A stretch of DNA of 64,000 nucleotides from Bacteroidales bacterium (GTDB taxonomy: Bacteria > Bacteroidota > Bacteroidia > Bacteroidales > UBA932). The position numbers and the translations under genes are program-made. The notes beneath the pieces were generated by a model, which ran no database searches, had not been told where the DNA came from, and saw nothing but the letters and a program-made list of their open reading frames with translations. Shown piece after piece: positions 42,164 to 56,813 of this stretch. The stretch covers positions 54,942 through 118,941 of the forward strand of contig JAFUWY010000027.1 in assembly GCA_017477245.1 (NCBI GenBank), read 5' to 3'. Each line of letters opens with the position of its first letter. The first letter of the stretch is position 1.

Positions 42164-43195
42164 ATGAGATTAACGAAATTCATCCTCTCCGTGGCCGTGA
42201 TTGCGGCCCCCCTCTTCGTCTCGGCTTGCAGCAGCCAGACCGCCGACACCTCCATCCCGTCCGACAAGAAAGAGATCATGGACCGCTTCGTCGCGGGCAC
42301 CCTGGATCCGTCCTATGTCCCGGCCCTTTTCTTCGGCCACTTCGGCGGCGACCAGAAGCTCGGCGAAGGCGCCGTCAAGGCCCACCTGAGCCTGTTCCTC
42401 AAGGGCGGCGCCGACATGCTCAAGATCCAGACCGAGCAGCCGATGCCCCGCGTCGAGGACCTGACCATGGAGACCCCGCTCGTGCCCGAAGACTGGTACG
42501 CCCCGACCGTGGAAGTCATCAAGGAGGTGCTCTCCTACGTCGGCAAGGACGTCTACGTGATGCCGACCATCCTCAGCACCCACCAGGTAGCCCGCCAGGG
42601 CTTCGGCGACGACCGCCTGCCCGGCTGGGCCGTGGAGCGCCCCGAGGCCTACAAGCGCATGCTGGACTCCTACACCAAGGCCATCCTCTGGTACATCCGC
42701 GAGTGCAAGAAGATCGGCGTCGAGGCCTTCTTCACCGCCACCCAGGGCGGCGAGCAGAAGTTCTATGAGCTGAATGTCCCCGGCGGTTTCTTCGAGACCA
42801 TGATCAAGCCCTACGACATGCAGGTCATGACCGAGGCCAACAAGGACACCAAGATCACCATCCTGCACATCTGCGACTGGGAAGGCCCGATGGACGACCT
42901 GACCCGCTACCTGGACTACCCCGGCAAGATCGTCAATGTCCCGCTCAAGATCGCGGACGAGCCGCTCACCCTGACCAAGACCTACGAGATGTTCGGACGC
43001 CCGGTGCTCGGCGGCTTCAACCGCAAGGCCGAGATCGGCAAGGAGTCTCCCGAGAAGATCGCCGCCATGACGCGTGAGATCATCGCGAACGGCCCGAAGG
43101 GCCACCTGATGATCGGCGCCGACTGCTCCGTCCCTTCCCCGCTGGACATCGCGGACAACGTGCACGCCGCCGTCAGCGCCGCCCACGGACGCTAG
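42164..43195 (+). CDS. uroporphyrinogen decarboxylase-like lipoprotein
   Basis: A 343-residue protein with a clear lipoprotein signal (FVSAC, Cys22) followed by a URO-D/MtaA-type barrel. Barrel-like stretches are GGADMLKIQTEQPMP, GVEAFFTATQGGEQKFY, ILHICDWEGP and PVLGGFNRKAEIG. The stretch ends GHLMIGADCSVPSPLDIADNV, as in URO-D family proteins. Cytoplasmic members decarboxylate uroporphyrinogen III or transfer methyl groups to corrinoid or CoM partners. An exported, membrane-anchored version cannot be the haem-pathway enzyme in the usual sense, and its substrate is unknown. It follows the double-DUF1080 gene and shares a CTAG at its stop with the convergent PurF-type gene. Confidence 0.75.
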   Translation: MRLTKFILSVAVIAAPLFVSACSSQTADTSIPSDKKEIMDRFVAGTLDPSYVPALFFGHFGGDQKLGEGAVKAHLSLFLKGGADMLKIQTEQPMPRVEDLTMETPLVPEDWYAPTVEVIKEVLSYVGKDVYVMPTILSTHQVARQGFGDDRLPGWAVERPEAYKRMLDSYTKAILWYIRECKKIGVEAFFTATQGGEQKFYELNVPGGFFETMIKPYDMQVMTEANKDTKITILHICDWEGPMDDLTRYLDYPGKIVNVPLKIADEPLTLTKTYEMFGRPVLGGFNRKAEIGKESPEKIAAMTREIIANGPKGHLMIGADCSVPSPLDIADNVHAAVSAAHGR

Positions 43196-44937
43196 AGCGG
43201 CAGTTGGAACTCCATCACCTTTTCCACGTAATCCACAAAGGCGGCATTGCACAGGCGCATGCCGCCTTTTGTCGGATATAAGCCCGTGAAATACCAGTCG
43301 CCGGGATGGTCCGGACAGGCCAGGTGGAGCCCGGCGATGCTCTGGAAGACCAGCTCGACCGGAGCACGCATGCCTTCCGGCCGGAGCATCTCCACGATCT
43401 TCGCGTTGATATCCTCCACGCTGAAAGGGGCATAGATCTCCCGGACATGGTTCTCCGACTGCGGGTCCTCCTTGCATTTCCGGTAGACGTCCGCGATCAG
43501 CTGCTGCATGCCGCGGTCGCGCAGCAGCGCGATGGCGGCCCGGAAGGCGCACAGCTCCTCCAGGTGCGACATGTCGATGCCGTAGTAATCGGGATAGCGG
43601 ATCTGCGGAGCGCTGGACACCATGACGATCTTCTTGGGATGCAGCCGGTCCAGGATCTTGAAGATGCTCTCCCGCAGGGTCGTCCCCCGGACGATGCTGT
43701 CGTCGATGACGACCAGGTTGTCCTCGTAGGGCCGCAGACTGCCGTAGCTGATGTCATAGACATGGGCGGCCAGGTCGTTGCGGCCGGCATTGTCCGTGAT
43801 GAAGGTGCGCAGCTTGATGTCCTTGACCACCACCTTCTCCGTGCGGATCTCGTCATGGAGCTTGCGGAAGCCGCCGACCATGCCGTAATAAGCCACCTCG
43901 GCCGTGTTCGGGATGTAGGAGAACACCGTGTTGTCCAGGTCATCCGCGACCGCCTTCAGCACGGGCTGGACCAGCTGCTCGCCCAGGCGCTTGCGCTCCT
44001 GGTAGATGTCGCAGTCCGACCCGCGGCTGAAATAGATCCGCTCGAACGAGCAGGCGGAGAGCTTCTGCGCCGGCAGGATCTGCTCCAGGCTGCTCCCGCC
44101 GTCCCGGCGCACGATCAGCGCCTGGCCGGGTTGGAGTTCGCAGACATCGCTGCTCTCCAGGTCGAAGGTCGTCTGCAGGACGGGCCGCTCGCTGGCCACC
44201 GCCACGATCTCGTCGTTCCGGTAGTAGAACGCAGGTCGGATCCCCCAGGGATCGCGCACGGCGAACATCTCGCCGCTGCCGGTCAGCCCGCACATCACGT
44301 AGCCGCCGTCGAAGTGGCCCATCGTCGAGCGGAGGACGTTGGCCATGCACACGTGGTCGTCGATGTAACGCGTGACCGCAAGCCCTTCCAGGCCCTGCTC
44401 CCGCGCCTCCACGAACAGCCGCTCGACCTCGCGGTCCAGACGGTGGCCCATCAGCTCGAGCGTGATGTAAGCATCGCCATAGAGCCTTGGAGACTGGCCC
44501 TGGGCGGTCAGGAAGCCGAAGACCTCCTCGATGTTGGTCATGTTGAAGTTGCCGCACAGGCAGAGGTTCTTCGCGCGCCAGTTGTTGCGGCGCAGGAAGG
44601 GGTGGACGTAGCTCAGGCCGCTCTTGCCGGTCGTCGAGTAGCGCAGGTGCCCCATGTACAGCTGACCGGCCGCGGCCGTGTCCACTTTCTTGAAGATCTC
44701 CGTGATGGCATCCGACCCCTCGGCCCGCTCGCGGAACATGTACTCCGTCCCGGCGGGCGCATCCAGGTCGACATACGCGAGGCCGGCCCCTTCCTGTCCC
44801 CGGTTGTGCTGTTTCTCCATCAGCAGGTACAGCTTGTTCAGTCCGTACCGGCCGGTCCCGTATTTCCGTTTGTAATAATCCAGCGGCTTGAGCAGGCGGA
44901 TCATCGCCACGCCGCACTCGTGCTTAAGCGGTTCCAT
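43192..44937 (-). CDS. purF: PurF-type amidophosphoribosyltransferase, long form
   Basis: A 581-residue glutamine amidotransferase/phosphoribosyltransferase fusion, longer than classical PurF (about 470-500). The class II glutaminase begins with a 7-residue propeptide before the likely nucleophile Cys8 (HECGVAM). QHNRGQEGAGLAY, MGHLRYSTTG and CGNFNMTN follow. The PRPP-binding loop is VVIDDSIVRGTTLRES. PurF makes 5-phosphoribosylamine from PRPP and glutamine, the first committed step of purine synthesis. Bacteroidetes often carry a long paralogue of this kind beside a standard PurF, so the exact role is not certain. It has its own promoter element at 44946-44953. Its stop overlaps the convergent URO-D-like gene by 4 bp. 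Confidence 0.78.
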   Translation of the reverse strand: MEPLKHECGVAMIRLLKPLDYYKRKYGTGRYGLNKLYLLMEKQHNRGQEGAGLAYVDLDAPAGTEYMFRERAEGSDAITEIFKKVDTAAAGQLYMGHLRYSTTGKSGLSYVHPFLRRNNWRAKNLCLCGNFNMTNIEEVFGFLTAQGQSPRLYGDAYITLELMGHRLDREVERLFVEAREQGLEGLAVTRYIDDHVCMANVLRSTMGHFDGGYVMCGLTGSGEMFAVRDPWGIRPAFYYRNDEIVAVASERPVLQTTFDLESSDVCELQPGQALIVRRDGGSSLEQILPAQKLSACSFERIYFSRGSDCDIYQERKRLGEQLVQPVLKAVADDLDNTVFSYIPNTAEVAYYGMVGGFRKLHDEIRTEKVVVKDIKLRTFITDNAGRNDLAAHVYDISYGSLRPYEDNLVVIDDSIVRGTTLRESIFKILDRLHPKKIVMVSSAPQIRYPDYYGIDMSHLEELCAFRAAIALLRDRGMQQLIADVYRKCKEDPQSENHVREIYAPFSVEDINAKIVEMLRPEGMRAPVELVFQSIAGLHLACPDHPGDWYFTGLYPTKGGMRLCNAAFVDYVEKVMEFQLPL

Positions 44938-45076: not shown

Positions 45077-46297
45077 CTATGCATTGTAGCAGCTTTCGCC
45101 GTGTTCGTAGATATCGAGGCCTTCCTCCTCGACTCGCTTGCCGACACGCAGGCCGTGGAGCTTACTGATGCCGTAGAAGAGCAGGATGCCGGTCGCGGCG
45201 GCCCAGAGGTCGATCACGAAGATGCCCAGTGCCTGCACACCGAAGAAGCGCCAGCCACCGCCATAGAAAAGACCGCCGTCCGTGGCCAGCAGGCCGGTCA
45301 GGAGCGTACCGAGGATTCCGCAAACACCGTGCACGCTGGAAGCGCCCACCGGGTCGTCGATGTGCAGTCTGCGGTCGATGAATTCAATGGCATAGACCAA
45401 CACGACACCGCAGATCAGGCCGATGACCACGGCACCCGGCGGAGAGACCATGTCGCAGCCCGCGGTGATGCCGACCAGACCGGCGAGGATGCCGTTGAGG
45501 GTCAGCGAGAGAGACGGTTTGCCATACTTGAGCCAAGTCAGGAACATGGTCGCCACACCGCCGGCAGCCGCCGCTAGGTTAGTGGTCAGGAAGACATGGG
45601 AGATCGCCGTGCGGTTCACCTCACCGGAGGCGGCCAGCTGCGAACCCGGGTTGAAGCCGAACCAGCCCATCCAGAGGATGAAGACGCCGAGCGCCGCCAT
45701 GCTCAGGTTATGGCCGGGAATGGCGCGGCTCTTGCCTTCAGCGGTATATTTGCCGATGCGGGGGCCAAGCGCGAGCGCGCCGATCAGGGCCAGGACACCG
45801 CCCACGCTATGGACGATCGCCGATCCGGCGAAATCGTGAAAGCCGAGTTTGCTCAGCCAGCCGCCGCCCCAGGTCCAGTGCCCTTCGATCGGATAGATGA
45901 ACAGCGAGATGAAGGCGCTGTAGACCAGGTACATCGAGAATTTAGTCCGCTCCGCCATGGCACCGCTTACGATCGTGGCGGACGTGGCGCAGAACACGGT
46001 CTCGAAGATCAGGAAGCCCTCCACGGGAAGGTCGCTCTTGTAAAAGGACAGGTCACCCCAATTGGGGGCACCGATAAAGCCGGCGCCGTCGCTGCCGAAC
46101 ATGAAGCCGAAGCCGACGAACCAGAACAGCAAGGAGCCGAACATGAAGTCAACGAAGTTCTTCATCAGGATGTTCGCCGTGTTCTTGCTGCGGGTGAAAC
46201 CCGCCTCGCACAGCGCGAAGCCCGGTTGCATGAAGAACACGAGCATCGCAGCCAACAACATCCATACAGTATCGAGGGAAATAGCTAAATCTTCCAT
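45077..46297 (-). CDS. amt: ammonium transporter Amt
   Basis: A 406-residue inner-membrane ammonium channel. The start ATG at 46297 gives the usual short N-terminus (MEDLAISLDTVWMLLAAMLV); a longer frame begins with a non-ATG-like leader. Family signatures include MQPGFALCEAGFTRSKN, the substrate-gate region, DFAGSAIVHSVGGVLALIGAL, FNPGSQLAASG and the second conserved pore His in ASSVHGVCGILGT. It lies 39 bp downstream of the P-II gene, the standard partner that blocks the channel when nitrogen is sufficient. Confidence 0.95.
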   Translation of the reverse strand: MEDLAISLDTVWMLLAAMLVFFMQPGFALCEAGFTRSKNTANILMKNFVDFMFGSLLFWFVGFGFMFGSDGAGFIGAPNWGDLSFYKSDLPVEGFLIFETVFCATSATIVSGAMAERTKFSMYLVYSAFISLFIYPIEGHWTWGGGWLSKLGFHDFAGSAIVHSVGGVLALIGALALGPRIGKYTAEGKSRAIPGHNLSMAALGVFILWMGWFGFNPGSQLAASGEVNRTAISHVFLTTNLAAAAGGVATMFLTWLKYGKPSLSLTLNGILAGLVGITAGCDMVSPPGAVVIGLICGVVLVYAIEFIDRRLHIDDPVGASSVHGVCGILGTLLTGLLATDGGLFYGGGWRFFGVQALGIFVIDLWAAATGILLFYGISKLHGLRVGKRVEEEGLDIYEHGESCYNA

Positions 46298-46336
46298 AAG
46301 GCAATCATTTTGAATGAATAAAAACAACTGCTTAAA

Positions 46337-46684
46337 CTACTTTTTGTCGCGCAGGACCGTATCGCCGTGCTCACCGGTGCGGATGGACCAGGTATCGATC
46401 ACATCGCTGATGAAAATACGGCCGTCTCCGATCTCGCCCGTCGAGGCAGTCTTGAGAATGACCTGCACGGTCGGATCGACGAACTGATCGCGGCACACGA
46501 TGGTCAACGCCACGCGCTCGATCACATCTGTGGAATACTGCACGCCACGGTAGATTCGCTCCTGGCGGCTCTGGCCGATACCATGCACATTGTGGTACTC
46601 AAACCAGTTGATGTCTGCTTCGAGCAAGGCTTCCTTGACCTCCTCGAACTTCGTCTTGCGGACAATCGCTTCAATTTTTTTCAT
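46337..46684 (-). CDS. P-II nitrogen regulatory protein
   Basis: A 115-residue P-II signalling protein that binds ATP/ADP and 2-oxoglutarate as a trimer and controls Amt, and often also glutamine metabolism. It has the N-terminal MKKIEAIVRKTKFEEVKEAL and a T-loop GIGQSRQERIYRGVQY with Tyr45 and Tyr50; the second is the residue modified in enterobacterial P-II. The C-terminal ATP-binding block GEIGDGRIFISDV is intact. Whether it is uridylylated in this organism is unknown. GlnK-type is likely from linkage to amt. The 126-bp gap upstream holds an imperfect hairpin (GCAAA/TTTGC) and a T run that may end the pyrG transcript. Confidence 0.94.
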   Translation of the reverse strand: MKKIEAIVRKTKFEEVKEALLEADINWFEYHNVHGIGQSRQERIYRGVQYSTDVIERVALTIVCRDQFVDPTVQVILKTASTGEIGDGRIFISDVIDTWSIRTGEHGDTVLRDKK

Positions 46685-46810: not shown

Positions 46811-48436
46811 TTACTGTCGGCCGAGATCGGCGGCCTGTGCGATACAGGCTTTGATAAAACTCATGAACAACGGATGCGGGTGCAGGACGGTCGAGGCGTA
46901 CTCGGGATGGAACTGCGTGCCGATATACCAGCGCAGCTCCGGGATCTCCACGATTTCCACCAGGTCGGCGTCGGGGTTGACACCCACGCACTGCATGCCG
47001 GCTTTCTCGTAATCCTTGCGGTAGCGGTTGTTGAACTCATAGCGGTGGCGGTGGCGCTCCCGGATGCTCTCCTGGCCGCCATACGCTTCCGCGACGTGGC
47101 TGCCGGGCCGAAGCCAGCAGGGATACTCGCCGAGCCGCATCGTGCCGCCCATCTGGGTGATGTTCTTCTGCTCCTCCATGATGTCAATCACGTTGTGCGG
47201 CGTGTCCGGGTTCATCTCGCTGCTGTCGGCGTCGGAGAGGCCGAGCACGTCACGTGCGAACTCGATCACCATCATCTGCATGCCCAGGCAGATGCCGAAG
47301 CAAGGGAGATCGTGTGTGCGGGCGAACTCCGCAGCAAGGATTTTGCCTTCGATGCCGCGACGACCGAAGCCCGGGCAAATCACCACGCCAGCCATGCCGG
47401 CAAGTTTGTCCGCCACGTTCTCCGGCGTGACGCCTTCGCTGTTGATGAAGTGGATCTTTACCTTCACATCATCGTAGATACCGGCGAGGCTCAGGCTCTC
47501 GCGGATGCTCTTGTAGGCATCCTGGAGGTCGTATTTGCCCACGAGGGCCACATGCACCAGGCGGTGCGCACCGGCCTGCATGTCAAGGAAGTCGTGCCAG
47601 GACTTCATGGCGGGCGTCTCCCCTACAGGAATACCGATCTTGCGCAGGATGGCCGCATCAAGGCCCTGGCGCTGCATATTCACTGGCACCTCATAGATGC
47701 TCGGCAGATCTTCGCTCTGCACCACGCACTCAAGGTCTACATTGCAGAAGGAAGCCACTTTCATACGCACGGAATCATCGAGATGGCGCTCAGTGCGGAG
47801 CACCAGGATATCGGGCTGGATACCCATCCCCTGCAGTTCCTTGACAGAGTGCTGTGTGGGCTTGGTCTTCAGTTCTTCTGCGGCCTTCAGGTAAGGCACA
47901 TACGTCAGGTGGACGCAGACGGCGTCCCGGCCCAGATCCCAGCGCAACTGGCGAATGGCTTCCATGAACGGGGCGCTCTCGATGTCGCCGATGGTGCCGC
48001 CGACCTCCGTGATCACGAAGTCGAGATCCTCGCCTTTCACGTCCCGGCGCAGCATCCGGCGCTTGATTTCGTCGGTGATGTGAGGGACTACCTGGATGGT
48101 CTTGCCCAGATAATCGCCCCGGCGCTCCCGGTCGATGACCGTCTTGTAGATGCGCCCCGTGGTGATGGAGTTCTCACGGGTGGTGCGGATACCTGTAAAT
48201 CGCTCGTAATGACCAAGGTCCAGGTCCGTCTCCATGCCGTCGGCCGTCACGTAGCACTCACCGTGCTCGTAGGGATTGAGCGTCCCCGGGTCGATGTTGA
48301 TATAGGGGTCGAACTTCTGGATCGTCACCTTGAACCCACGGGCCTGGAGCAATTTGCCCAGACTGGCGGAAATGATGCCCTTGCCCAATGAAGAGACCAC
48401 GCCGCCTGTTATGAAGATATATTTCGTGTTCATCAT
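46811..48436 (-). CDS. pyrG: CTP synthase PyrG
   Basis: A 541-residue glutamine-dependent CTP synthase that aminates UTP to CTP. The synthetase domain starts YIFITGGVVSSLGKGI, with SLGKLLQARG and DLDFVITEVGGTIGDIES. The class I glutaminase domain has the nucleophile Cys in PCFGICLGMQMM and the C-terminal His-Glu in QFHPEY. Length is normal. Two ATG codons are adjacent (48436 and 48433). It lies a few bases after gltD, making another glutamine-consuming enzyme of the same transcript. Confidence 0.97.
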   Translation of the reverse strand: MMNTKYIFITGGVVSSLGKGIISASLGKLLQARGFKVTIQKFDPYINIDPGTLNPYEHGECYVTADGMETDLDLGHYERFTGIRTTRENSITTGRIYKTVIDRERRGDYLGKTIQVVPHITDEIKRRMLRRDVKGEDLDFVITEVGGTIGDIESAPFMEAIRQLRWDLGRDAVCVHLTYVPYLKAAEELKTKPTQHSVKELQGMGIQPDILVLRTERHLDDSVRMKVASFCNVDLECVVQSEDLPSIYEVPVNMQRQGLDAAILRKIGIPVGETPAMKSWHDFLDMQAGAHRLVHVALVGKYDLQDAYKSIRESLSLAGIYDDVKVKIHFINSEGVTPENVADKLAGMAGVVICPGFGRRGIEGKILAAEFARTHDLPCFGICLGMQMMVIEFARDVLGLSDADSSEMNPDTPHNVIDIMEEQKNITQMGGTMRLGEYPCWLRPGSHVAEAYGGQESIRERHRHRYEFNNRYRKDYEKAGMQCVGVNPDADLVEIVEIPELRWYIGTQFHPEYASTVLHPHPLFMSFIKACIAQAADLGRQ

Positions 48437-48438
48437 TT

Positions 48439-49788
48439 CTATTTTGCCTTTTTAAAGTATGCATCCACGGCGGCCGCAGCCGTATGGCCGGAAGCCATCG
48501 CACGCACCACCAGCGAGGCGCCGCTCTGCACGTCGCCGGCGAAGAAGATATTCTCCCCCACCTCGGGCAACTGCGGCTTCAGGAAGCCCATCGCCAGCAG
48601 GACGATGTCCGACTTGACCAGTTCCGGCTCGCCGGCCGGGACCATCAGCGGACGTCCGCCCTCAGGGTTGGGTTTCCAGTCGACAGGCTGGATCTCGACG
48701 CCGGTGAGATGTCCTTTTTCCCCGACGAAGCGCAGGGTATTGATGTTCCAGCGCCGTACGCAGCCCTCTTCGTGCGAAGAAGAGGTCTTGAGCGTGCGCG
48801 GCCAGTTCGGCCAAGGGTTCGCCGGGTCGTCCGGCCCCACAGGGGGCTTGGGCAGGATTTCAATCTGCATCACGGACTTGCAGCCCTGACGGTGCGCCGT
48901 GCCGATGCAGTCGGAACCCGTGTCTCCGCCACCGATAACCAGCACATCCTTGCCCTTGCAGGTCACCCGGTGCGCGGCATCCACTTCGGCGCCGTACAGG
49001 ACGCGGTTCTGCTGCGCGAGCAGCTCCAGGGCGAAGTACACACCCTTCAGCTCGCGCCCGGGCACGGGCAGGTCGCGCGCCGTCGGGGTGCCGGTAGCGA
49101 TGACGTAAGCGTCAAAGCCTTTCGGCAGCGCATCCGGCGCCACTTCCTCGCCGTAGCGGAAAGTGATCCCTTCTTGTTCCATCAATGCGATGCGGCGGTC
49201 AATCACAATCTTGTTCAACTTGAAATTCGGAATGCCGAACCGGAGCAGGCCGCCGGCCTTCTCGTTCTTCTCGAAGACGGTTACGGTATAACCCTTGCGG
49301 TTCAGTTGATTGGCCGCGGCCAGGCCTGAGGGACCCGCGCCGATCACGGCCACCTTTCTGCCACTGCGCTCCGGCGTCACCGGGCGCACATAGTTCTCAC
49401 GGTAAGCGATTTCCGTGATGGCTGCTTCGTTCTCGCGGTTGGTCGTCGGCTCGTGCATCGTGAGGTTGAGCACACAAGCTTTCTCACAGAGCGCCGGACA
49501 CACGCGGCCGGTGAACTCCGGGAAATCGTTGGTCGAGTTGAGCAGGCGGTATGCCAGTTCGAAATCCCCTTTATACACAGCGTCGTTCCACTCCGGCGGG
49601 CGGTTGCCCAGCGGGCAGGCCCAGTTGCAGAAAGGCACGCCGCAGTCCATGCAGCGCGAAGCCTGCAGCCGGCGGTCGCCCTCGTTGAGCGTCTGCTCCA
49701 CTTCCCCGAAATCCTGGATGCGGTCGTGGACCGGCCGGTAGCCGGCTTCCTTGCGGGGTATCGTCAAAAATGCTTTGTAGTCTCCCAT
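48439..49788 (-). CDS. gltD: glutamate synthase small subunit GltD
   Basis: A 449-residue NADPH-binding subunit of glutamate synthase that feeds electrons to GltB. The N-terminal Fe-S region CMDCGVPFCNWACPLGNRPPEW, the FAD site VAVIGAGPSGLAAANQL and the NADPH site VLVIGGGDTGSDCIGTAHRQG are present, and the C-terminus has FFAGDVQSGASLVVRAM. It is 6 bp downstream of gltB and a few bases upstream of pyrG, consistent with a gltB-gltD-pyrG operon. Confidence 0.96.
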   Translation of the reverse strand: MGDYKAFLTIPRKEAGYRPVHDRIQDFGEVEQTLNEGDRRLQASRCMDCGVPFCNWACPLGNRPPEWNDAVYKGDFELAYRLLNSTNDFPEFTGRVCPALCEKACVLNLTMHEPTTNRENEAAITEIAYRENYVRPVTPERSGRKVAVIGAGPSGLAAANQLNRKGYTVTVFEKNEKAGGLLRFGIPNFKLNKIVIDRRIALMEQEGITFRYGEEVAPDALPKGFDAYVIATGTPTARDLPVPGRELKGVYFALELLAQQNRVLYGAEVDAAHRVTCKGKDVLVIGGGDTGSDCIGTAHRQGCKSVMQIEILPKPPVGPDDPANPWPNWPRTLKTSSSHEEGCVRRWNINTLRFVGEKGHLTGVEIQPVDWKPNPEGGRPLMVPAGEPELVKSDIVLLAMGFLKPQLPEVGENIFFAGDVQSGASLVVRAMASGHTAAAAVDAYFKKAK

Positions 49789-49794
49789 AAGGCG

Positions 49795-52700
49795 TCAATA
49801 TTGGATTTGGAGGTTCTGTACTTTCTCCGCCAGGCCGCGCAGGCGCTCCTGTTCGAGAACATGCTTGTATTCAATCGGTATGAGCTTGATGAAGTCATCA
49901 ACCGAGCGGCTCCAGTCGTCCAGCAGCGTCCGGGCCAGGTTGGACCCGGTGTAGAGGTAGTGCTGGCGGATCAGCTCATGCAGCTCTTTGCGGTCGAGTT
50001 TGTCGTCCACGAGTGAGATCTCGACCATGTCGAGGTTGCAATAGTAGTCGAAGACATGCGTGGGGTCATATACATAGGCGATACCTCCGGACATACCGGC
50101 TGCGAAATTGCGGCCCACCGGGCCCAGGACGACCACGCGGCCACCCGTCATATACTCGCAGCAGTGGTCTCCCGCACCCTCCACGACGGCCTTGGCGCCC
50201 GAGTTGCGGACCGCGAAACGCTGGCCGGCGCGGCCAGCAATGTACATCTCGCCGCCCGTGGCGCCGTAAAGACAGGTATTGCCGGCGATGATATTGTCCT
50301 CGGCCTTGAACGTAGCGCGGGCGGATGGGCGGATGGCCACGCGGCCGCCGCTCAGGCCCTTGCCGACGTAATCGTTGGCCTCGCCTTCGAGGCGCACATT
50401 GATGCCCCCCGCGAGGAAGGCACAGAAACTCTGACCGGCCGAGCCCTTGAACTTGATGTTCAAAGTCGAATCCGGCAAGCCCTCGGCCCCGTATTTAGCG
50501 GCAATCCGGCCGCTTAGCATCGTACAGACGGCACGGTCGGTGTTGGCGATGGGATACTCAAGGCTGATTTCCTCCTTCCACTCGATGGCCGGCTGGGCAG
50601 CCCTGATGATCTCGAGGTCGCGCACGGGCGGGAGCGGATGGAACTCAGCGCCTGACCAGCCGCCGGAGCCCTCCTCCTTGAAGAGTAAGCGGGAGAGGTC
50701 CACACGCGCTGCCTTGGATGCCGGATCTACCGGCTTGCGGACCAGCAGTTCCGTGTGGCCCACCACTTCAGAGAGGCTGTGGAAGCCCATCTCCGCGAGA
50801 TATTCCCGAACTTCCTGTGCGAGATAGGTAAAGTAGTTGACGAGGTAGTCCGCCTTGCCAAGGAAGTGCTTGCGCAGCTCGGGATCCTGGGTGGCCACGC
50901 CCGTGGGGCAGGTATTAAGGCTACACTTGCGCATCATCACGCAGCCGAGCACAATCAGCGGCAGGGTGCCGAAACCAAACTCGTCCGCGCCGAGCAGCGA
51001 CATCAGGAGCACGTCGCGGCCGGTCTTGAGCTGGCCGTCCACCTGCAAGCGCACCTGGCTGCGCAAACCGTTGCGCACGAGCGTCTGCTGCGCCTCTGCA
51101 AGGCCGATTTCCGGGCTGATGCCTGCAAAACGCATCGAAGATGCAGGTGACGCTCCGGTGCCGCCCTCGGCCCCGGAAATGACAATCAGGTCGGCCTTGG
51201 CCTTGGCCACGCCGGCAGCGATCGTACCCACGCCGCTCTCCGACACCAGTTTAACGCTGATGGCGGCGGCCGGGTTGACATTCTTGAGGTCGAAAATCAG
51301 TTGCGAGAGGTCTTCGATGGAATAAATGTCATGGTGCGGCGGCGGGGAGATCAGCGAGATACCCGGGATGGAATTGCGGGTCTTCGCGATGATAGCGTTG
51401 ACCTTGAATCCCGGCAACTGGCCACCTTCGCCAGGCTTGGCACCCTGGGCGACCTTGATCTGGATCTCCTCGGCATTGACAAGGTATTCTGCCGTGACGC
51501 CGAAGCGTCCGGAGGCCACCTGCTTGGTCTTGCTGGACAACGACACGCCATCCACCTCGGTATGATAGCGCTCGTTGTCTTCGCCGCCCTCGCCCGTGTT
51601 GGAACGCGTCCCGAGACGGTTCATCGCCAGGGCGATGGCCTCGTGTGCCTCGATGCTCAAGGCGCCGAAGCTCATGGCGCTCACGACGAAGCGTTTGATG
51701 ATGGACTCCACGCTCTCCACCTCCTCGACGGGAATGGCGATGCCGCGCTTGAAGTCCAGCAGGTCGCGCAGGAAAAGCGCCTCAGGCTTGGCGTCAACGG
51801 CAGCGGTAAACTCCTTGAATTTCTTGTAGCTGCCCAGGCGCGTGGCGATCTGCAAGGCCGATATGGTCTCGGGGTTCCAAGCATGGGCGATGCCGTCCTT
51901 GCGGTAATGGAACTGGCCCACATCGGGCAGGAAATCCGTCTTCGACGCCTCAGTGTACGCCTGCGCATGGAACCACATGGCATCGCGCGCAATGGTCTCC
52001 AGGCCGACACCGCCGATGGTCGAACGCTCCGTGCCGAAGTACTCACGCAGCAGGCTCTCGTCCAGGCCGATGCTTTCGAAGATCTTGGCGCCGCGGTAGG
52101 AGCGGATGGTGGAAATACCCATCTTGGCCATGATCTTCAGCAGGCCTTTCTTCATCGCCTCGATATAGTTGGTGCGGGCCGTGGCATAGTTCAACTGGAT
52201 CTTACCGCCGTGCGCCAGGCTCGAGATGATGGCGAAGGAGAGGTAAGGGTTGATGGCGGAAGCGCCGTAGCCGAGCAGCAGCGCGGCGTGCATCGTCTCG
52301 CGGATCTCGCCGCTCTCGACGATCAGGGCCGTCTGCACGCGCTTGCCGGTGGCGATCAGGTGGTGGTGTACCGCACTGACGGCCAGCAGCGAAGGGATGG
52401 GCGCATGGGTCTCATCCACATTGCGATCGGACAGGATGATATAGTTCACGCCGTCATCCACGCACTTCTCTGCCTTCTGACAGAGCCCGGCGAGGGCCCG
52501 GCGCAGGTTGGAGGCGGCCGCAGGGGTGTTCGCCGCACACTCGAAGAGCATCGGGAGCTTGACGGTGTTGAATCCTTTATAACGGATGTTACAGAGCAGG
52601 TCGAGTTGCGTGTTGGTCAGGATCGGATGCGGCAGGCGCACCATCTTGCAGTTGTCTCCATCGGGCGTCAGGATGCCCGCGCCCACGCGTCCGATGTACT

Positions 52701-54270
52701 CGAACAACGACATCACCATCTGTTCGCGGATAGAGTCGATGGGCGGGTTGGTCACCTGCGCGAACTGCTGACGGAAATAGTTGAAAAAGCTCTGCGGGCG
52801 CTCCGTCAGGACGGCCAGCGGGGTGTCGTTGCCCATCGAAGAGGTGGGCTCGATACCTTTCTCGCACATGGGTTTGACGGCGTTCTCCACATCTTCGGCC
52901 GTGCAGCCGAAGAGGATCTCCTTTTGCAGCAGGTCGGCCTCGTTGTGCTCTACCTTGCGGCCGCTATGCAGGTCCTCCAGCTGGATGCGTCCGGCGGAGA
53001 GCCACTTGCGGTACGGGTGTTCGGAAGCCAGCCGCTCCTTGATCTCGGCGTCGTACCAGATCTTGCCTTCCTTGGTGTCCACGAGCAGCATCTTTCCCGG
53101 CTCAAGACGGCCTTTGCACTCGATCTCGGTGGGATCGAAGTCCAGCACACCCACCTCGCTCGCGACGACCAGCAGTCCGCGCTTGGTGATGGTGTAGCGG
53201 CCAGGGCGCAGACCGTTGCGGTCCAGGATGCCGCCCGCGTAACGGCCGTCGCTAAAGAGCAGCGTAGCCGGACCGTCCCATGGCTCCATGAGGATGGAAT
53301 GATACTCGTAGAAAGCGCGCAGGTCCTCGGAGATCGGGTTCGTCCCGTCGAAGCTCTCCGGCATCAGCACAGAGACGGCCTGCGGCAGGCTGAGTCCGCT
53401 CTGGGTCAGGAATTCCAGCACGTTGTCCAGGCTGGCGGAGTCGCTCATGTCGGGCTGGACGATCGGCAGCAAATCGCCGATATCACCCATCGCGCCGGAG
53501 TTGAGCACGCTCTGGCGGGCCTGCATCCAGCTGCGGTTGCCGCGGATGGTGTTGATCTCGCCGTTGTGGCAGAGCATGCGGAACGGCTGCGCCAGGCTCC
53601 ACTGAGGGAAGGTGTTGGTCGAGAAACGGGAGTGGACGATCGCCATCGCGCTAGTGAACCACTGGCTCGTCAGGTCGGCATAGTACTCCCGCAGCTGACG
53701 GCTGGTGAGCATCCCTTTATATACGATATTGCGCGTGGACAGGGAGCAGATATAACCGTCCTCCCCCAGCCTTTCGACGTGCTTGCGGATGCGGTAGAGT
53801 TTGCGCTCGAAGTCGACTTCCTCGATGAATTCCGCACTGGTCACGAAAATCTGCACCGTGAAGGGTTCGCCCTTCGCCGCTTCCTCGCCGAGGCAGGCGG
53901 AGTTGACCGGTACCTCACGGACGTGGCTGAGTACGCAGCCTTCGTGTTCGACCTCGTTCTTGATACAGTCCAGGATGCACTCCCGTTTGGCTGTTTCCTT
54001 GGGCAGGAACACCAGTCCGGTGCCGTAGCGTCCCTTTTCTGGGACGGGGATACCCTGAAGCAAGATGAATTCATGGGGAATCTGGACCATGATGCCGGCA
54101 CCGTCGCCCGACTTGCCGTCGGCACCTTCGGCACCGCGGTGGCTCATGTTTTCGAGAACCCTCAGGGCGTTGTCCACCAGTTCATGGGTCTTGTCGCCAC
54201 GGATGTTCACGACCATACCTACCCCGCAGGCATCGTGTTCCGATGCCGGAGAATATAGACCTCCGTCCAT
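49795..54270 (-). CDS. gltB: glutamate synthase large subunit GltB
   Basis: A 1491-residue glutamate synthase that makes two glutamates from glutamine and 2-oxoglutarate. Order: propeptide of 14 residues before nucleophile Cys15 (HDACGVGMVV), class II glutaminase, central domain, FMN-binding synthase domain and the beta-helix domain. The synthase domain has GGEDNERYHTEVDG, SGAEGGTGASPASSMRFAG and the 3Fe-4S Cys in CVMMRKCSLNTCPTGVATQ. The beta-helix includes GGEMYIAGRAGQRFAVRNSG. It lies 52 bp downstream of glnN with no terminator seen between them, so readthrough from glnN is likely. Together with GlnN it forms the ammonium assimilation cycle. Confidence 0.97.
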   Translation of the reverse strand: MDGGLYSPASEHDACGVGMVVNIRGDKTHELVDNALRVLENMSHRGAEGADGKSGDGAGIMVQIPHEFILLQGIPVPEKGRYGTGLVFLPKETAKRECILDCIKNEVEHEGCVLSHVREVPVNSACLGEEAAKGEPFTVQIFVTSAEFIEEVDFERKLYRIRKHVERLGEDGYICSLSTRNIVYKGMLTSRQLREYYADLTSQWFTSAMAIVHSRFSTNTFPQWSLAQPFRMLCHNGEINTIRGNRSWMQARQSVLNSGAMGDIGDLLPIVQPDMSDSASLDNVLEFLTQSGLSLPQAVSVLMPESFDGTNPISEDLRAFYEYHSILMEPWDGPATLLFSDGRYAGGILDRNGLRPGRYTITKRGLLVVASEVGVLDFDPTEIECKGRLEPGKMLLVDTKEGKIWYDAEIKERLASEHPYRKWLSAGRIQLEDLHSGRKVEHNEADLLQKEILFGCTAEDVENAVKPMCEKGIEPTSSMGNDTPLAVLTERPQSFFNYFRQQFAQVTNPPIDSIREQMVMSLFEYIGRVGAGILTPDGDNCKMVRLPHPILTNTQLDLLCNIRYKGFNTVKLPMLFECAANTPAAASNLRRALAGLCQKAEKCVDDGVNYIILSDRNVDETHAPIPSLLAVSAVHHHLIATGKRVQTALIVESGEIRETMHAALLLGYGASAINPYLSFAIISSLAHGGKIQLNYATARTNYIEAMKKGLLKIMAKMGISTIRSYRGAKIFESIGLDESLLREYFGTERSTIGGVGLETIARDAMWFHAQAYTEASKTDFLPDVGQFHYRKDGIAHAWNPETISALQIATRLGSYKKFKEFTAAVDAKPEALFLRDLLDFKRGIAIPVEEVESVESIIKRFVVSAMSFGALSIEAHEAIALAMNRLGTRSNTGEGGEDNERYHTEVDGVSLSSKTKQVASGRFGVTAEYLVNAEEIQIKVAQGAKPGEGGQLPGFKVNAIIAKTRNSIPGISLISPPPHHDIYSIEDLSQLIFDLKNVNPAAAISVKLVSESGVGTIAAGVAKAKADLIVISGAEGGTGASPASSMRFAGISPEIGLAEAQQTLVRNGLRSQVRLQVDGQLKTGRDVLLMSLLGADEFGFGTLPLIVLGCVMMRKCSLNTCPTGVATQDPELRKHFLGKADYLVNYFTYLAQEVREYLAEMGFHSLSEVVGHTELLVRKPVDPASKAARVDLSRLLFKEEGSGGWSGAEFHPLPPVRDLEIIRAAQPAIEWKEEISLEYPIANTDRAVCTMLSGRIAAKYGAEGLPDSTLNIKFKGSAGQSFCAFLAGGINVRLEGEANDYVGKGLSGGRVAIRPSARATFKAEDNIIAGNTCLYGATGGEMYIAGRAGQRFAVRNSGAKAVVEGAGDHCCEYMTGGRVVVLGPVGRNFAAGMSGGIAYVYDPTHVFDYYCNLDMVEISLVDDKLDRKELHELIRQHYLYTGSNLARTLLDDWSRSVDDFIKLIPIEYKHVLEQERLRGLAEKVQNLQIQY

Positions 54271-54322: not shown

Positions 54323-56497
54323 CTAGTTGATGAAGAGCAGCTCGCGGTACTTCGGCAGCGGCCACATCTTGTTGTCCACGACTTCTTCGAGCTTGTCGAT
54401 CGGGCGGCGGAGCGCCGGGAAACTCTCGGCGATCTCGTGGTAGGCCAGGGCCCGCTCGTAGTCGTTTCCGATCAGGTTAGCGGCCTTGCGGGCTTCGCGC
54501 ATGGCTTCCGCCCGGGCGCGGACTTCGTCCACGTGGCGGCTGATGTTCTCCAGCAGCACCAGCTCCGTGCCGCAGTTGTCCAGGTTGCCGTAGACCTCCT
54601 TCGCGAGGGCCACTTCCTTCAGGAGCTTGGACTTGTACTCCAGCGCGGCCGGGATGATGTGGTTGAGGGCCATCCGCACCATCACGCGGGACTCGATCTG
54701 GACCTTCTTGATGTAGGTCTCCCACTTGACGTCGTTGCGGGCCTGGAGCTCCTTCTCGGTGTAGACGCCGGTCTTGGTGAACATCTCCACGGCCGCCGGC
54801 TTAGTGAATTCGCAGAACATCTTCGGCACGTTGGTCTCGACGTCGAGGCCGCGGCGCTCCGCTTCCCGCTTCCACTCCTCGGTGTAGCCGTTGCCGTCGA
54901 AGCAGACCGTGCCGAGCACCGACTTGATGATGGGCTTGAGGGCATCCATGATGGCGACGTTCGTCTTCTTGCCCTTCGCGAGCTCCGCATCCACGTCCGC
55001 CTTGAAGGCGATGAGCTGCTCGGCCACGGCGGCGTTGAGCGTCGTCATCGCGCCGGCGCAGTTAGCGCAGGAACCGACGGCGCGGAACTCGAAACGGTTG
55101 CCGGTGAAGGCGAACGGCGAGGTGCGGTTGCGGTCGGTATTGTCCACGAAGACCTCCGGGATCTCCACCAGGCCGACGCTCTTGCTCTTCTTGCCCGCGA
55201 TCTCGATCGGCGTGTCGGAAGGGACTTCGAGCAGCTTGTGCAGGACCTCGGTCATCGTGCGGCCGAGGAAGGCGGACACGATGGCGGGCGGCGCCTCGTT
55301 GGCGCCCAGGCGGTGGGCGTTGGTCGCGCTGGCGATGGAAGCCTTCAGCAGGCCGTTGTGCTTCTGCACGGCCGCCAGGACATTCACGAAGAAGGTGATG
55401 AACTGGAGGTTACCCTTGGCATCCTTGCCCGGGGCGAGCAGCTGCGCGCCCTTGTCCGTACCGAGCGACCAGTTGTTGTGCTTGCCGGAACCGTTCACCC
55501 CGTCGAAAGGCTTCTCGTGCAGCAGCACCACGAAGCCGTGCTTGCGGGCGATGCGTCCCATCAGGTTCATCACGATCTGGTTCTGGTCGTTGGCGAGGTT
55601 GGTCTCGCCGTAGATCGGGGCCAGTTCGAACTGGTTGGGCGCCACCTCGTTGTGGCGGGTCTTGAGGGGGATGCCCAGGCGGTGGCCGGCCACCTCGAGG
55701 TCACGCATGAAGGCGGCCACACGGGGCGGGATGGATCCGAAATAATGGTCGTCCAGCTGCTGGTTCTTCGAGGAATTGTGGCCGAACAGGGTCCGGCCGG
55801 TGATCATCAGGTCCGTACGGGCCGAGTAGAGCGACTCGTCCACGAGGAAGTACTCCTGCTCCCAGCCCAGGTAGGAAAAGACCTTGGTCACACCCGGATC
55901 GAAAAACTTGCAGATCGGCACGGCAGCGTCGCTGACCGCCTTGAGGGCCTTCTTGAGCGGCGTCTTGTAGTCCAGGGCCTCGCCCGTATAGGAAATGAAA
56001 ACCGTCGGGATGCAGAGGGTGTCGTCCAGGATGAAGACCGGCGAGGTCGGATCCCAGGCCGTGTAGCCGCGCGCCTCGAAGGTGGCGCGGATGCCGCCGC
56101 TGGGGAAGGACGAGGCGTCCGGCTCCTGCTGGGCGAGCATCTTGCCGTCGAAGGTCTCGATCACGCCGCCCTTGCCGTCGTAATCGATCAGCGAGTCGTG
56201 CTTCTCGGCCGTACCCTCGGTCAGCGGCTGGAACCAGTGCGTGACGTGGGTCACGCCGTGCTCCATGGCCCATTCCTTCATGCCGCGGGCCACGCCGTCC
56301 GCCGTCTTGCGGTCGAGGGCGTGCCCGCCCTCGATGCAGTCGAGCAAGGCATGCAGGCTCCCCGCATCCAGGTACTTGCACATCTTCTTGCGGTCAAACA
56401 CCAGCTCGCCGAAATACTCGGAAGTCTTCCCTGCCGGGATTTCCGCCGGAACCGACTTCTTCTCGAAGGATTCCTTCACCAGGTCAAATCTGTCCAT
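54323..56497 (-). CDS. glnN: glutamine synthetase type III
   Basis: A 724-residue GSIII, the dodecameric glutamine synthetase typical of Bacteroidetes. It makes glutamine from glutamate, ammonium and ATP. Family-specific blocks are SEYFGELVFDRKKM at the N-terminus, KTRHNEVAPNQFELAPIY, GSGKHNNWSLGTDKG, RTSPFAFTGNRFEFRAVGS and the long C-terminal helical part unique to type III. The ATG at 56497 is 36 nt downstream of a terminator-type hairpin that itself follows a glutamine-codon-rich reading frame. This makes it the best candidate target of ribosome-coupled attenuation. Downstream genes gltB, gltD and pyrG may be read from the same transcript. Confidence 0.97.
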   Translation of the reverse strand: MDRFDLVKESFEKKSVPAEIPAGKTSEYFGELVFDRKKMCKYLDAGSLHALLDCIEGGHALDRKTADGVARGMKEWAMEHGVTHVTHWFQPLTEGTAEKHDSLIDYDGKGGVIETFDGKMLAQQEPDASSFPSGGIRATFEARGYTAWDPTSPVFILDDTLCIPTVFISYTGEALDYKTPLKKALKAVSDAAVPICKFFDPGVTKVFSYLGWEQEYFLVDESLYSARTDLMITGRTLFGHNSSKNQQLDDHYFGSIPPRVAAFMRDLEVAGHRLGIPLKTRHNEVAPNQFELAPIYGETNLANDQNQIVMNLMGRIARKHGFVVLLHEKPFDGVNGSGKHNNWSLGTDKGAQLLAPGKDAKGNLQFITFFVNVLAAVQKHNGLLKASIASATNAHRLGANEAPPAIVSAFLGRTMTEVLHKLLEVPSDTPIEIAGKKSKSVGLVEIPEVFVDNTDRNRTSPFAFTGNRFEFRAVGSCANCAGAMTTLNAAVAEQLIAFKADVDAELAKGKKTNVAIMDALKPIIKSVLGTVCFDGNGYTEEWKREAERRGLDVETNVPKMFCEFTKPAAVEMFTKTGVYTEKELQARNDVKWETYIKKVQIESRVMVRMALNHIIPAALEYKSKLLKEVALAKEVYGNLDNCGTELVLLENISRHVDEVRARAEAMREARKAANLIGNDYERALAYHEIAESFPALRRPIDKLEEVVDNKMWPLPKYRELLFIN

Positions 56498-56533
56498 ACT
56501 GTTACACTTTATATTGTTAAACTAACCGTTCCC

Positions 56534-56566
56534 AACAAAAGAGGCTGATCCCCTCGGACCAGCCTC
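56534..56566 (-). terminator. attenuator-type terminator upstream of glnN
   Basis: On the minus strand GAGGCTGGTCC (56566-56556) and GGATCAGCCTC (56551-56541) form an 11-bp stem with one G-U pair and a GAGG loop. TTTTGTT follows at 56540-56534. There is no T run on the plus strand side, so the hairpin acts on minus-strand transcripts only, that is, between the leader frame and glnN. Confidence 0.8.
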
Positions 56567-56600
56567 AATATATCAATCAACGTTTCTGGCACACGGCCGG

Positions 56601-56681
56601 TTATACGCACACAGAAACACCCGGGACCTGCTGGGCCTGGGACTGCTGGTTCTGCTGCTGGTTGTATACGAAGTATGCCAT
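56601..56681 (-). CDS. 26-residue glutamine-rich leader peptide of glnN
   Basis: A short frame starting ATG at 56681 and ending TAA at 56601. Codons 8-18 read Gln-Gln-Gln-Asn-Gln-Gln-Ser-Gln-Ala-Gln-Gln, so eight of eleven are Gln, all CAG. The N-terminus is MAYFVYN and the end is VPGVSVCV. It lies on the same strand as glnN, 103 nt before its ATG, and is followed by a terminator with a U tract. This is the layout of leader peptides in amino-acid attenuation, in which scarcity of the repeated amino acid stalls the ribosome and relieves termination. An independent small protein is the alternative, but the composition and position match the downstream enzyme product too well to ignore. It would be missed by length-filtered gene callers. 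Confidence 0.7.
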   Translation of the reverse strand: MAYFVYNQQQNQQSQAQQVPGVSVCV

Positions 56682-56813
56682 TTGTTTCAACAAATTTCCG
56701 GTGCAAGTTAAGAAGAAAATCCGGGAATGCAAGCGATTTTTTGATTTTTTGAATCTCGACGCACATATCTGCGCCCGCTTCCGGAGATCGGTCGCAATAT
56801 TGCAAAAAACATT

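Follow-up and report, generated by a model that had tools for sequence, protein, structure and literature searches.

How is nitrogen assimilation controlled in Bacteroidales, and what might a short open reading frame (ORF) crowded with glutamine codons do in front of a glutamine synthetase (GS) gene? The question is raised by a 64,000-nucleotide stretch of DNA from a Bacteroidales bacterium (GenBank assembly GCA_017477245.1, contig JAFUWY010000027.1, positions 54,942 to 118,941), referred to here in its full length as the window. In this stretch, a Gln-rich leader ORF and an intrinsic terminator precede a gene that we take to be glnN, presumably encoding a GSIII enzyme; both names are those used in the earlier note that drew attention to the locus. 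Our reading, which is very probably correct as a whole, is that the leader attenuates transcription according to how well the cell is supplied with glutamine and asparagine, which it gauges by how fast the ribosome moves along a Gln/Asn-rich peptide frame, that it antiterminates by way of a pseudoknot, and that devices of this type tie several nitrogen operons into a regulon. Judged from sequence comparison, there is little doubt about Gln/Asn-sensing attenuation as such; the pseudoknot form of it is probable.

A Gln-rich leader, a terminator, and a promoter motif in the window

The earlier note, made from the letters of the window, described a 26-codon frame with eight CAG codons among codons 8 to 18, and this frame was confirmed at 56681-56601 (Table 1). 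Its Gln codons are codons 8, 9, 10, 12, 13, 15, 17, and 18, all CAG; given the codon frequencies of nine window genes, at least eight Gln codons in 11 have a probability of ∼4.5e-11 per given frame position. The two Asn codons of the window leader are both AAC. The terminator was likewise found as described, both in the sequence and by folding, with an 11-bp stem, a T tract, and the glnN ATG 36 nt later. The predicted folding energy is −22.0 kcal/mol, which none of 200 shuffled sequences equaled, and the glnN start at 56497 is 43 nt from the stem. It was considered whether this hairpin is simply the terminator of an upstream gene, which was ruled out because the upstream neighbor is divergent. 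The segment between terminator and glnN (56498-56533, GGTTAGTTTAACAATATAAAGTGTAACAGT) is also conserved in close relatives such as L002 and L031 and is perhaps the translation-start region.

A promoter consensus, TAnnTTTG / TTTG, is quoted in the consulted part of PMC7366714. Of 79 distinct leaders assembled from the window and related loci, 59 have the motif TAnnTT[TG][GC] no more than 60 nt ahead of the leader start (12% in shuffled sequences), the median distance from motif start to leader start being 31 nt. The earlier note had considered that glnN might be transcribed from a promoter located after the hairpin. Only 3 of the 79 leaders have the motif in the 45 nt that follow the terminator; in one relative, L021, a promoter-like motif was seen by eye directly before glnN. 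The leaders present a frame, predicted to be translated, that is rich in codons for the operon's amino acid; a promoter upstream of that frame, as a motif; an intrinsic terminator between the leader and the first gene; and, as described below, an antiterminator segment able to pair with the terminator 5′ arm in place of its 3′ arm, as judged by position and covariation.

Conservation of the Gln/Asn codon run

The glnN upstreams of 109 relatives were read, a few genomes being counted twice under two locus identifiers, and the 350 nt before the gene were scanned in the 108 that had enough sequence. The nearest named relatives are records labeled "Bacteroidales bacterium," "uncultured Bacteroidia," and Candidatus Cryptobacteroides, and the genus in our counts is labeled Cryptobacteroides after them. 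An open 12-codon stretch with at least eight Asn or Gln codons was found in 26/108 glnN upstreams, compared to 1/108 reverse strands and 0/324 shuffled sequences; this comparison of glnN upstreams, suggested in the earlier note, supports attenuation and enlarges the proposal. In the 79 distinct leaders, Gln and Asn account for a median of 9 of the 12 codons of the run (range, 5 to 12). The amide residues are kept and the rest of the frame is variable, as illustrated by NQQQNQQSQAQQ (window), NNNNQNNNQNQQ (L052), SQQQNQQQSQSQ (L045), and AQQQNQQQ (L086).

Both amino acids are used in the runs, which overall contain 400 CAG, 193 AAT, 101 AAC, and 8 CAA codons. The proposal of glutamine-sensing attenuation can accordingly be kept only in a wider form: the element is very probably a leader-peptide attenuator read through Gln codons and conserved in relatives, and Asn codons are equally part of the run. 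A CAG repeat, or another repeat acting at the RNA level, was ruled out, because the runs mix CAG, AAT, AAC, and a few CAA codons and because some leaders are nearly Asn only. In the 75 leaders for which codon usage was compared with that of the downstream genes, the rarer Asn codon is preferred in the runs (AAT 180 versus AAC 97, compared to 222 versus 1103 downstream), and Gln is encoded by the common codon (CAG 378 versus 8 others, compared to 781 versus 61 downstream). The AAT preference may tune stalling or avoid stray pairing.

A hairpin loop complementary to the terminator arm

The last codons of the leader, after the run, form the 5′ strand of a predicted hairpin, P1, whose loop holds a hexamer that we call the AT box. 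The AT box is usually CCAGCC or CCAGUC, lies at or near the stop codon, and faces a terminator 5′ arm of GGCUGG; in the window, CCGGCC is complementary to GGCUGG with one G-U pair. The AT boxes, which were picked by complementarity with a mild preference for the usual place, are located in a hairpin loop in 76/79 leaders, compared to 149/395 random hexamers from the same stretches when the AT box was kept unpaired. The spacer before the AT box is 1 to 2 nt in 43/76 leaders, and the spacer after it is 0 to 1 nt in 60/76. A loop hexamer, a short first spacer, and a near-zero second spacer make up the geometry of an H-type pseudoknot, which this model suggests for the pairing of the AT box with the terminator arm. 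Neither the P1 hairpin around the hexamer nor the implied pseudoknot had been recognized in the earlier note.

Covariation was evaluated in an alignment of 74 rows, 73 of them distinct (A4; one wrong-strand row, L187, was left in). For P1 plus the AT:arm helix, 88.5% of cells are paired, compared to 73.6% in shuffled alignments and 28 to 43% in slid versions, and 196 cells are double changed, compared to 61 after shuffling. In the AT:arm helix, to which the models were not fitted, 99.1% of cells are paired and 8 are double changed, compared to 1.5 after shuffling, a count as high being reached in 0/500 shuffles. The result was similar with an earlier alignment, A3. Double changes are seen in 8/11 pairs of the terminator. 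The covariation that the earlier note proposed to look for is present in the terminator stem, and that of the antiterminator is found at the AT box.

Where the terminator arm has changed, the hexamer mostly matches the change: GGCCGG occurs with CCGGUC or CCGGCC, GACCGG with CCGGUC, GGCCGU with ACGGCC, and GCCGGC with GUCGGC. The pairing register is shifted in L053 and L185 and, by eye, in L280, and the AT:arm match of L222 is no more than weak. When the arm types were placed on a tree of 56 glnN proteins, 6 changes were required, the minimum for five types being 4.

One type of leader before several nitrogen genes

A covariance model built from 18 glnN leaders only and spanning the last codons to the terminator (R1) was run against 250 genomes of the genus. 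Some match was obtained in 163 of them at E values up to 0.01, among which matches below about 40 to 47 bits mean little, and matches were also found outside glnN. Twenty further places with E values from 3.9e-19 to 1.1e-6 were fetched, 17 of which precede nitrogen genes and have Gln/Asn-rich frames (9 glnN, 3 asnB, 3 glnK-amt, 1 gltB, and 1 purF-like); the others, L183, L188, and L189, were rejected as false matches. A second model, built from 51 leaders (R2) and reported at E values up to 1e-6, gave 76 matches in 66/400 genomes. In total, 74 of these precede nitrogen genes (glnN 61, glnK 5, asnB 5, gltB 1, purF 1, and pyrG 1); the remaining two are L284, at a contig end, and the false match L183. 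Although 54 of the 76 belong to the building set, 20 of the 22 others also precede nitrogen genes, including the pyrG case. In the host genome of the window, R2 finds one such leader. In the order-wide R1 scan (295 genomes), the 29 matches read, the window's own aside, looked like plain terminators, with at most 5 Asn/Gln per 10 codons.

Gene-based searches covered amt and asnB, in 71 genomes each. At least 6 Asn/Gln in 12 codons were found within 700 nt before amt in 6/17 loci (L220, L222, L229, L231, L232, and L234). The structure was read in L222, L229, L232, and L234 only, and each has a leader before glnK. L220 and L231 have Gln/Asn-rich stretches of 10 and 6 of 12 codons about 510 to 530 nt before amt, where the glnK leaders sit. 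For asnB, 20/21 matches had the gene start on the contig, and at least 6 Asn/Gln in 12 codons precede the gene in L238, L239, L250, L253, and L256/L257, the last two being one gene. The L253 stretch abuts the asnB start and was not counted as a leader. L237 has 5 Asn/Gln in 12 codons, and inspection by eye showed a matching pair of AT box and terminator; the remaining asnB loci have at most 4 and are often intra-operonic. Leaders were assigned before asnB in L237, L239, L250, and L257. In L250 and L257, the frame does not end at the AT box but goes on into a recurrent FSxSHLRV stretch, and in L257 a ribosome at the stop codon would already be past the AT box.

The fraction Q/(Q+N) falls from 0.63 in 58 glnN leaders (a count that takes in L284, which runs off its contig, by default) through 0.51 in 8 glnK leaders to 0.36 in 9 asnB leaders, one of which, L239, has a run made up solely of Asn codons. 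On these sequences, the dominance of Gln or Asn is one that follows the gene product, Gln for glnN and Asn for asnB. Since the same leader is predicted before several nitrogen genes in sister species, we regard it as the mark of a regulon, and glnN, which the earlier note treated as the sole target, is one of a set that also includes glnK-amt, asnB, gltB, purF, and pyrG.

Proposed mechanism and alternatives

In the proposed mechanism, transcription would start about 15 to 20 nt before the leader, at a start site placed from the motif. A shortage of charged tRNA-Gln or tRNA-Asn would stall the ribosome in the run and leave P1 folded; the AT box in its loop would then capture the nascent 5′ arm of the terminator, forming an H-type pseudoknot that prevents termination, and glnN and the genes behind it would be transcribed. 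With plentiful Gln and Asn, the ribosome would enter and open P1 and cover the AT box while terminating, so that the terminator folds and transcription stops. The positions of the parts are consistent with this scheme. With a ribosome footprint of −20 to +12, the ribosome reaches onto the AT box in 77/79 leaders when its A site holds the stop codon, and the AT box and the 20 nt before it are free in 79/79 when it holds the first Gln/Asn codon.

The same parts and the same sign of control could also belong to a three-state attenuator like that of trp, in which P1 is a protector (1:2), a ribosome at the last Gln codons covers the P1 5′ strand and frees the AT box as a plain antiterminator, and P1 reforms after normal release so that the terminator forms. 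A ribosome at the last Gln/Asn codon does reach the 20 nt upstream of the AT box in 33/79 leaders. However, P1 would hide the AT box poorly, because in 76/79 leaders the box is in the loop, not the stem. Moreover, a stall is expected at the first codons of the run, where P1 is free in 79/79 leaders, and this would lead to termination when glutamine is lacking. We therefore consider this alternative possible but doubtful and, given the loop position, the spacers, and the ribosome positions relative to the AT box, prefer a P1-loop antiterminator broken by the advancing ribosome. In the trp layout, the codons lie inside strand 1 of the 1:2 hairpin and the antiterminator strand lies in a stem; since the run here precedes P1 and the AT box occupies the P1 loop, membership of that type is not claimed.

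The antiterminator envisaged in the earlier note was the Gln codons 15 to 18 themselves (GGCCCAGC, 56637-56630); in the window, 7 of their 8 positions are indeed complementary to the terminator arm, as it stated. This pairing is not conserved. The run matches its own arm with a mean best score of 3.8/6 in the 65 leaders with the canonical arm and of 2.5, 2.9, 1.0, and 3.5 for four other arm types, whereas the stretch after the run averages 5.7/6 and reaches 5.1 to 6.0 where the arm has changed, although this stretch is about twice as long and so somewhat favored. An antiterminator within the run is thus very unlikely.

A glutamine riboswitch, with the short frame as a by-product, would be in keeping with the cyanobacterial glnA RNA, which precedes nearly the same genes according to the consulted part of PMC2864571. 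It is nonetheless highly improbable: neither the window nor ten related loci have an Rfam match at the gathering score (tmRNA, signal recognition particle [SRP] RNA, and tRNA aside), P1 has no invariant pair, and the conserved feature is the amino acid content of the frame, spread over four codons, with a Gln/Asn dominance that follows the gene. Equally improbable is that the peptide itself matters, as a Gln/Asn-rich microprotein or an arresting nascent chain before an ordinary, leaky terminator, since the residues that partly recur after the run (SxCV* and PAGE*, the asterisk being the stop) follow from the P1 stem and AT box that underlie those codons, the rest of the peptide varies in both length and sequence between leaders, and AT:arm covariation would not be expected.

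Several observations weigh against attenuation through a P1-loop pseudoknot and need to be set beside the evidence for it. The dense leader is absent from 82/108 glnN upstreams, some of which are intra-operonic or belong to other glnN clades. L038 (glnN 89.5% identical to that of the window) keeps the terminator and lacks the leader, P1, and the AT box, so that a hairpin without a leader, a case raised against attenuation by the earlier note, does occur. L021 (glnN 92.9%) lacks both leader and terminator, and L041 has an unrelated upstream with neither. These three loci show that the putative device can be lost, and they fit poorly with its being required everywhere. As to the structure, A3 and A4 were fitted to the P1 and terminator helices, and their counts are biased towards those helices. 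The 17 pairs with double changes in P1 plus AT:arm are reached by 26/500 shuffles. Within the AT:arm helix, double changes fall in only 2/6 pairs, which 96/500 shuffles reach; two pairs are invariant and two vary on one side only. The GACCGG arm is matched just as well by leaders whose own arm is GGCCGG, and no standard type matches L222 or L023. In single sequences, AT:arm complementarity has a P value of <0.05 in only 21/79 leaders, which is not beyond chance, and in 7/54 leaders (L002, L023, L031, L033, L040, L119, and L122) the most stable duplex of the arm is elsewhere, usually with the P1 5′ strand. P1 alone is no more stable than shuffled sequences in 4/5 folded leaders, including the window (z = −0.80), L086 being the one that stands out. 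Finally, we know of no work establishing tight ribosome-polymerase coupling for this phylum.

Relation to known systems

Leader-peptide attenuators are known for the trp, his, thr, ilv, and leu operons of enterobacteria, and Bacteroid-trp RNA is a trp leader. The leaders described here resemble the enterobacterial attenuators in having a short frame rich in codons for the product, an upstream promoter, a terminator before the first gene, an alternative pairing of the terminator 5′ arm, and ribosome stalling as the predicted sensor. They differ in that Gln and Asn would both be sensed, that one device serves several nitrogen operons, and that the codons lie upstream of a hairpin with the antiterminator in its loop, so that the pseudoknot would be broken by the advancing ribosome. 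At the gathering score, the window had no covariance-model match to any Rfam 15 family, the glnA riboswitch, Bacteroid-trp, and T-box included; three weak, unrelated matches fell below that score, and only tmRNA, SRP RNA, and tRNA were matched in the ten related loci.

As far as the consulted portion of PMC1262725 goes, the LEU element upstream of leuA in Actinobacteria is alike in combining a product-codon run in the leader with a predicted pseudoknot; here, in contrast, the terminator is the target, and the codon run has no conserved pairing to the arm. The glnA RNA, in the part of PMC2864571 consulted, shares the PII, GS, glutamate synthase (GOGAT), and ammonium transporter genes but is a structured RNA proposed to bind a ligand, with no Rfam match here. 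The same part describes the Bacteroid-trp RNA (RF01692), which is alike as a candidate cis-regulatory RNA of Bacteroidetes and unlike in having no Rfam match here and no link to nitrogen genes in that part. In the full-text literature, with subscription papers and preprints outside the search, we found no earlier report of a Gln/Asn-codon attenuator, in agreement with the earlier note, which knew of none.

In Prevotella ruminicola, the same genes change together (amtB 69-fold and glnN-2 35-fold), and the consulted part of PMC5552732 describes a non-enteric nitrogen pattern and gives no mechanism. That part is inconsistent about the direction, which also counts against our reading: the text of section 7 has the nitrogen genes up under ammonium limitation, the figure legend and sections 9 and 10 have them up under non-limiting ammonium, and the abstract has GS-GOGAT similar in both.

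On balance, it is more likely than not that the leaders represent a new attenuation architecture, in which a loop-to-nascent-arm H-type pseudoknot would act as the antiterminator and be broken by a ribosome past the sensing codons, Gln and Asn would be read together, and glnN, gltBD, glnK-amt, asnB, pyrG, and purF would be tied into one translation-sensed regulon in uncultured Bacteroidales and probably Prevotella. Control of nitrogen assimilation in Bacteroidales is poorly known, and a leader that responds to charged tRNA-Gln and tRNA-Asn would account for such control with no need for a regulator devoted to nitrogen. If the model is true, it would be, to our knowledge, the first Gln- and Asn-sensing attenuator, one small device for several operons; peptides supplying Gln and Asn would switch the nitrogen genes off, and the spacing of stop codon and AT box would imply that ribosome and RNA polymerase move in step in these bacteria.

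Genes behind the leader in the window

The leader and the genes behind it form a single minus-strand nitrogen cluster in the window (Table 1). Among NCBIfam models, the best match of the glnN product is type I glutamate-ammonia ligase. From the gene order, one leader appears to head glnN-gltB-gltD-pyrG, and glnK-amt is likely on the same transcript; membership of the purF-like gene is uncertain, and its relative in L190 has a Gln/Asn leader of its own.

Table 1. Leader elements and nitrogen genes in the window, in order of transcription
Feature	Position	Strand	Evidence or remark
Promoter −33-like element TTGC	56729-56732	−	By position
Promoter −7-like element TAACTTGC	56703..56710	−	Motif match
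Leader ORF	56601..56681	−	26 codons, MAYFVYNQQQNQQSQAQQVPGVSVCV*
Gln/Asn codon run (predicted sensor)	56628..56663	−	10/12 codons
P1 hairpin, 5′ strand	56603..56618	−	Last leader codons; folding and covariation
AT box CCGGCC	56595..56600	−	P1 loop, immediately 3′ of the stop codon
P1 hairpin, 3′ strand	56582..56594	−	GUGUGC CAGAAAC; folding and covariation
Intrinsic terminator	56541..56566	−	11-bp stem, 4-nt loop; 5′ arm carries GGCUGG at 56559-56564
T tract TTTTGTT	56534..56540	−	Directly 3′ of the terminator
glnN, glutamine synthetase (presumed name), predicted first controlled gene	54323..56497	−	All NCBIfam matches below curated cutoffs
gltB, glutamate synthase large subunit	49795..54270	−	NF008730, above cutoff
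gltD, glutamate synthase small subunit	48439..49788	−	TIGR01317, above cutoff
pyrG, glutamine-hydrolyzing CTP synthase	46811..48436	−	TIGR00337, above cutoff
glnK-like P-II protein	46337..46684	−	P-II models below their cutoffs; 126-nt gap upstream
amt, ammonium transporter	45077..46327	−	TIGR00836, above cutoff
purF-like glutamine amidotransferase	43192..44937	−	TIGR01134 below cutoff; 139-nt gap upstream

Occurrence beyond the genus

In other families, a dense leader precedes glnN in L085 and L086, and sparser ones were found in L191/L293, L094, L095, and L292. L085 (a Muribaculaceae record) and L086 (labeled Porphyromonadaceae), grouped with L288 and L290, have a glnN ∼75% identical to that of the window. 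The L085 gene shares no more than 65% identity with the other glnN sequences of its family and is preceded by the leader, as would be seen if the two had been transferred as a unit. None of 29 Muribaculaceae-type glnN upstreams has at least 8 Asn/Gln in 12 codons; the maximum is 5 among the 28 ordinary loci whose upstream sequence was long enough, and 7 in L320, which has 75 nt only. A glnN search across the order, covering 237 genomes and a reading of 29 more loci, gave at least 6 only in L191 and, near the gene start, in L201.

Before Prevotella-like glnK, a dense Gln/Asn frame with AT box and terminator was seen by eye in L330, L332, and L333 and not in L331. In the Prevotella-like genus of G794 (37 genomes), a terminator with a GGCTGG arm is present in 13/29 printed glnN upstreams, some of them with a sparser Asn frame and others with none recognizable. 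The Prevotella-like glnN loci L069, L072, L334, L335, L349, and L350 have a sparser Asn run and a recurrent PAGE* end, which is the AT box CCAGCC in frame. In L298 (G477, another family), a Gln/Asn leader, an AT box, and a matching terminator precede the gene for a small signal-peptide protein, presumably resembling an outer-membrane porin. A second glnN clade (L178, L184, L186, L187, and L281), 65 to 70% identical to the glnN of the window, carries the same leader; as the two clades are deeply separated, the predicted device would be either old or copied between glnN paralogues.
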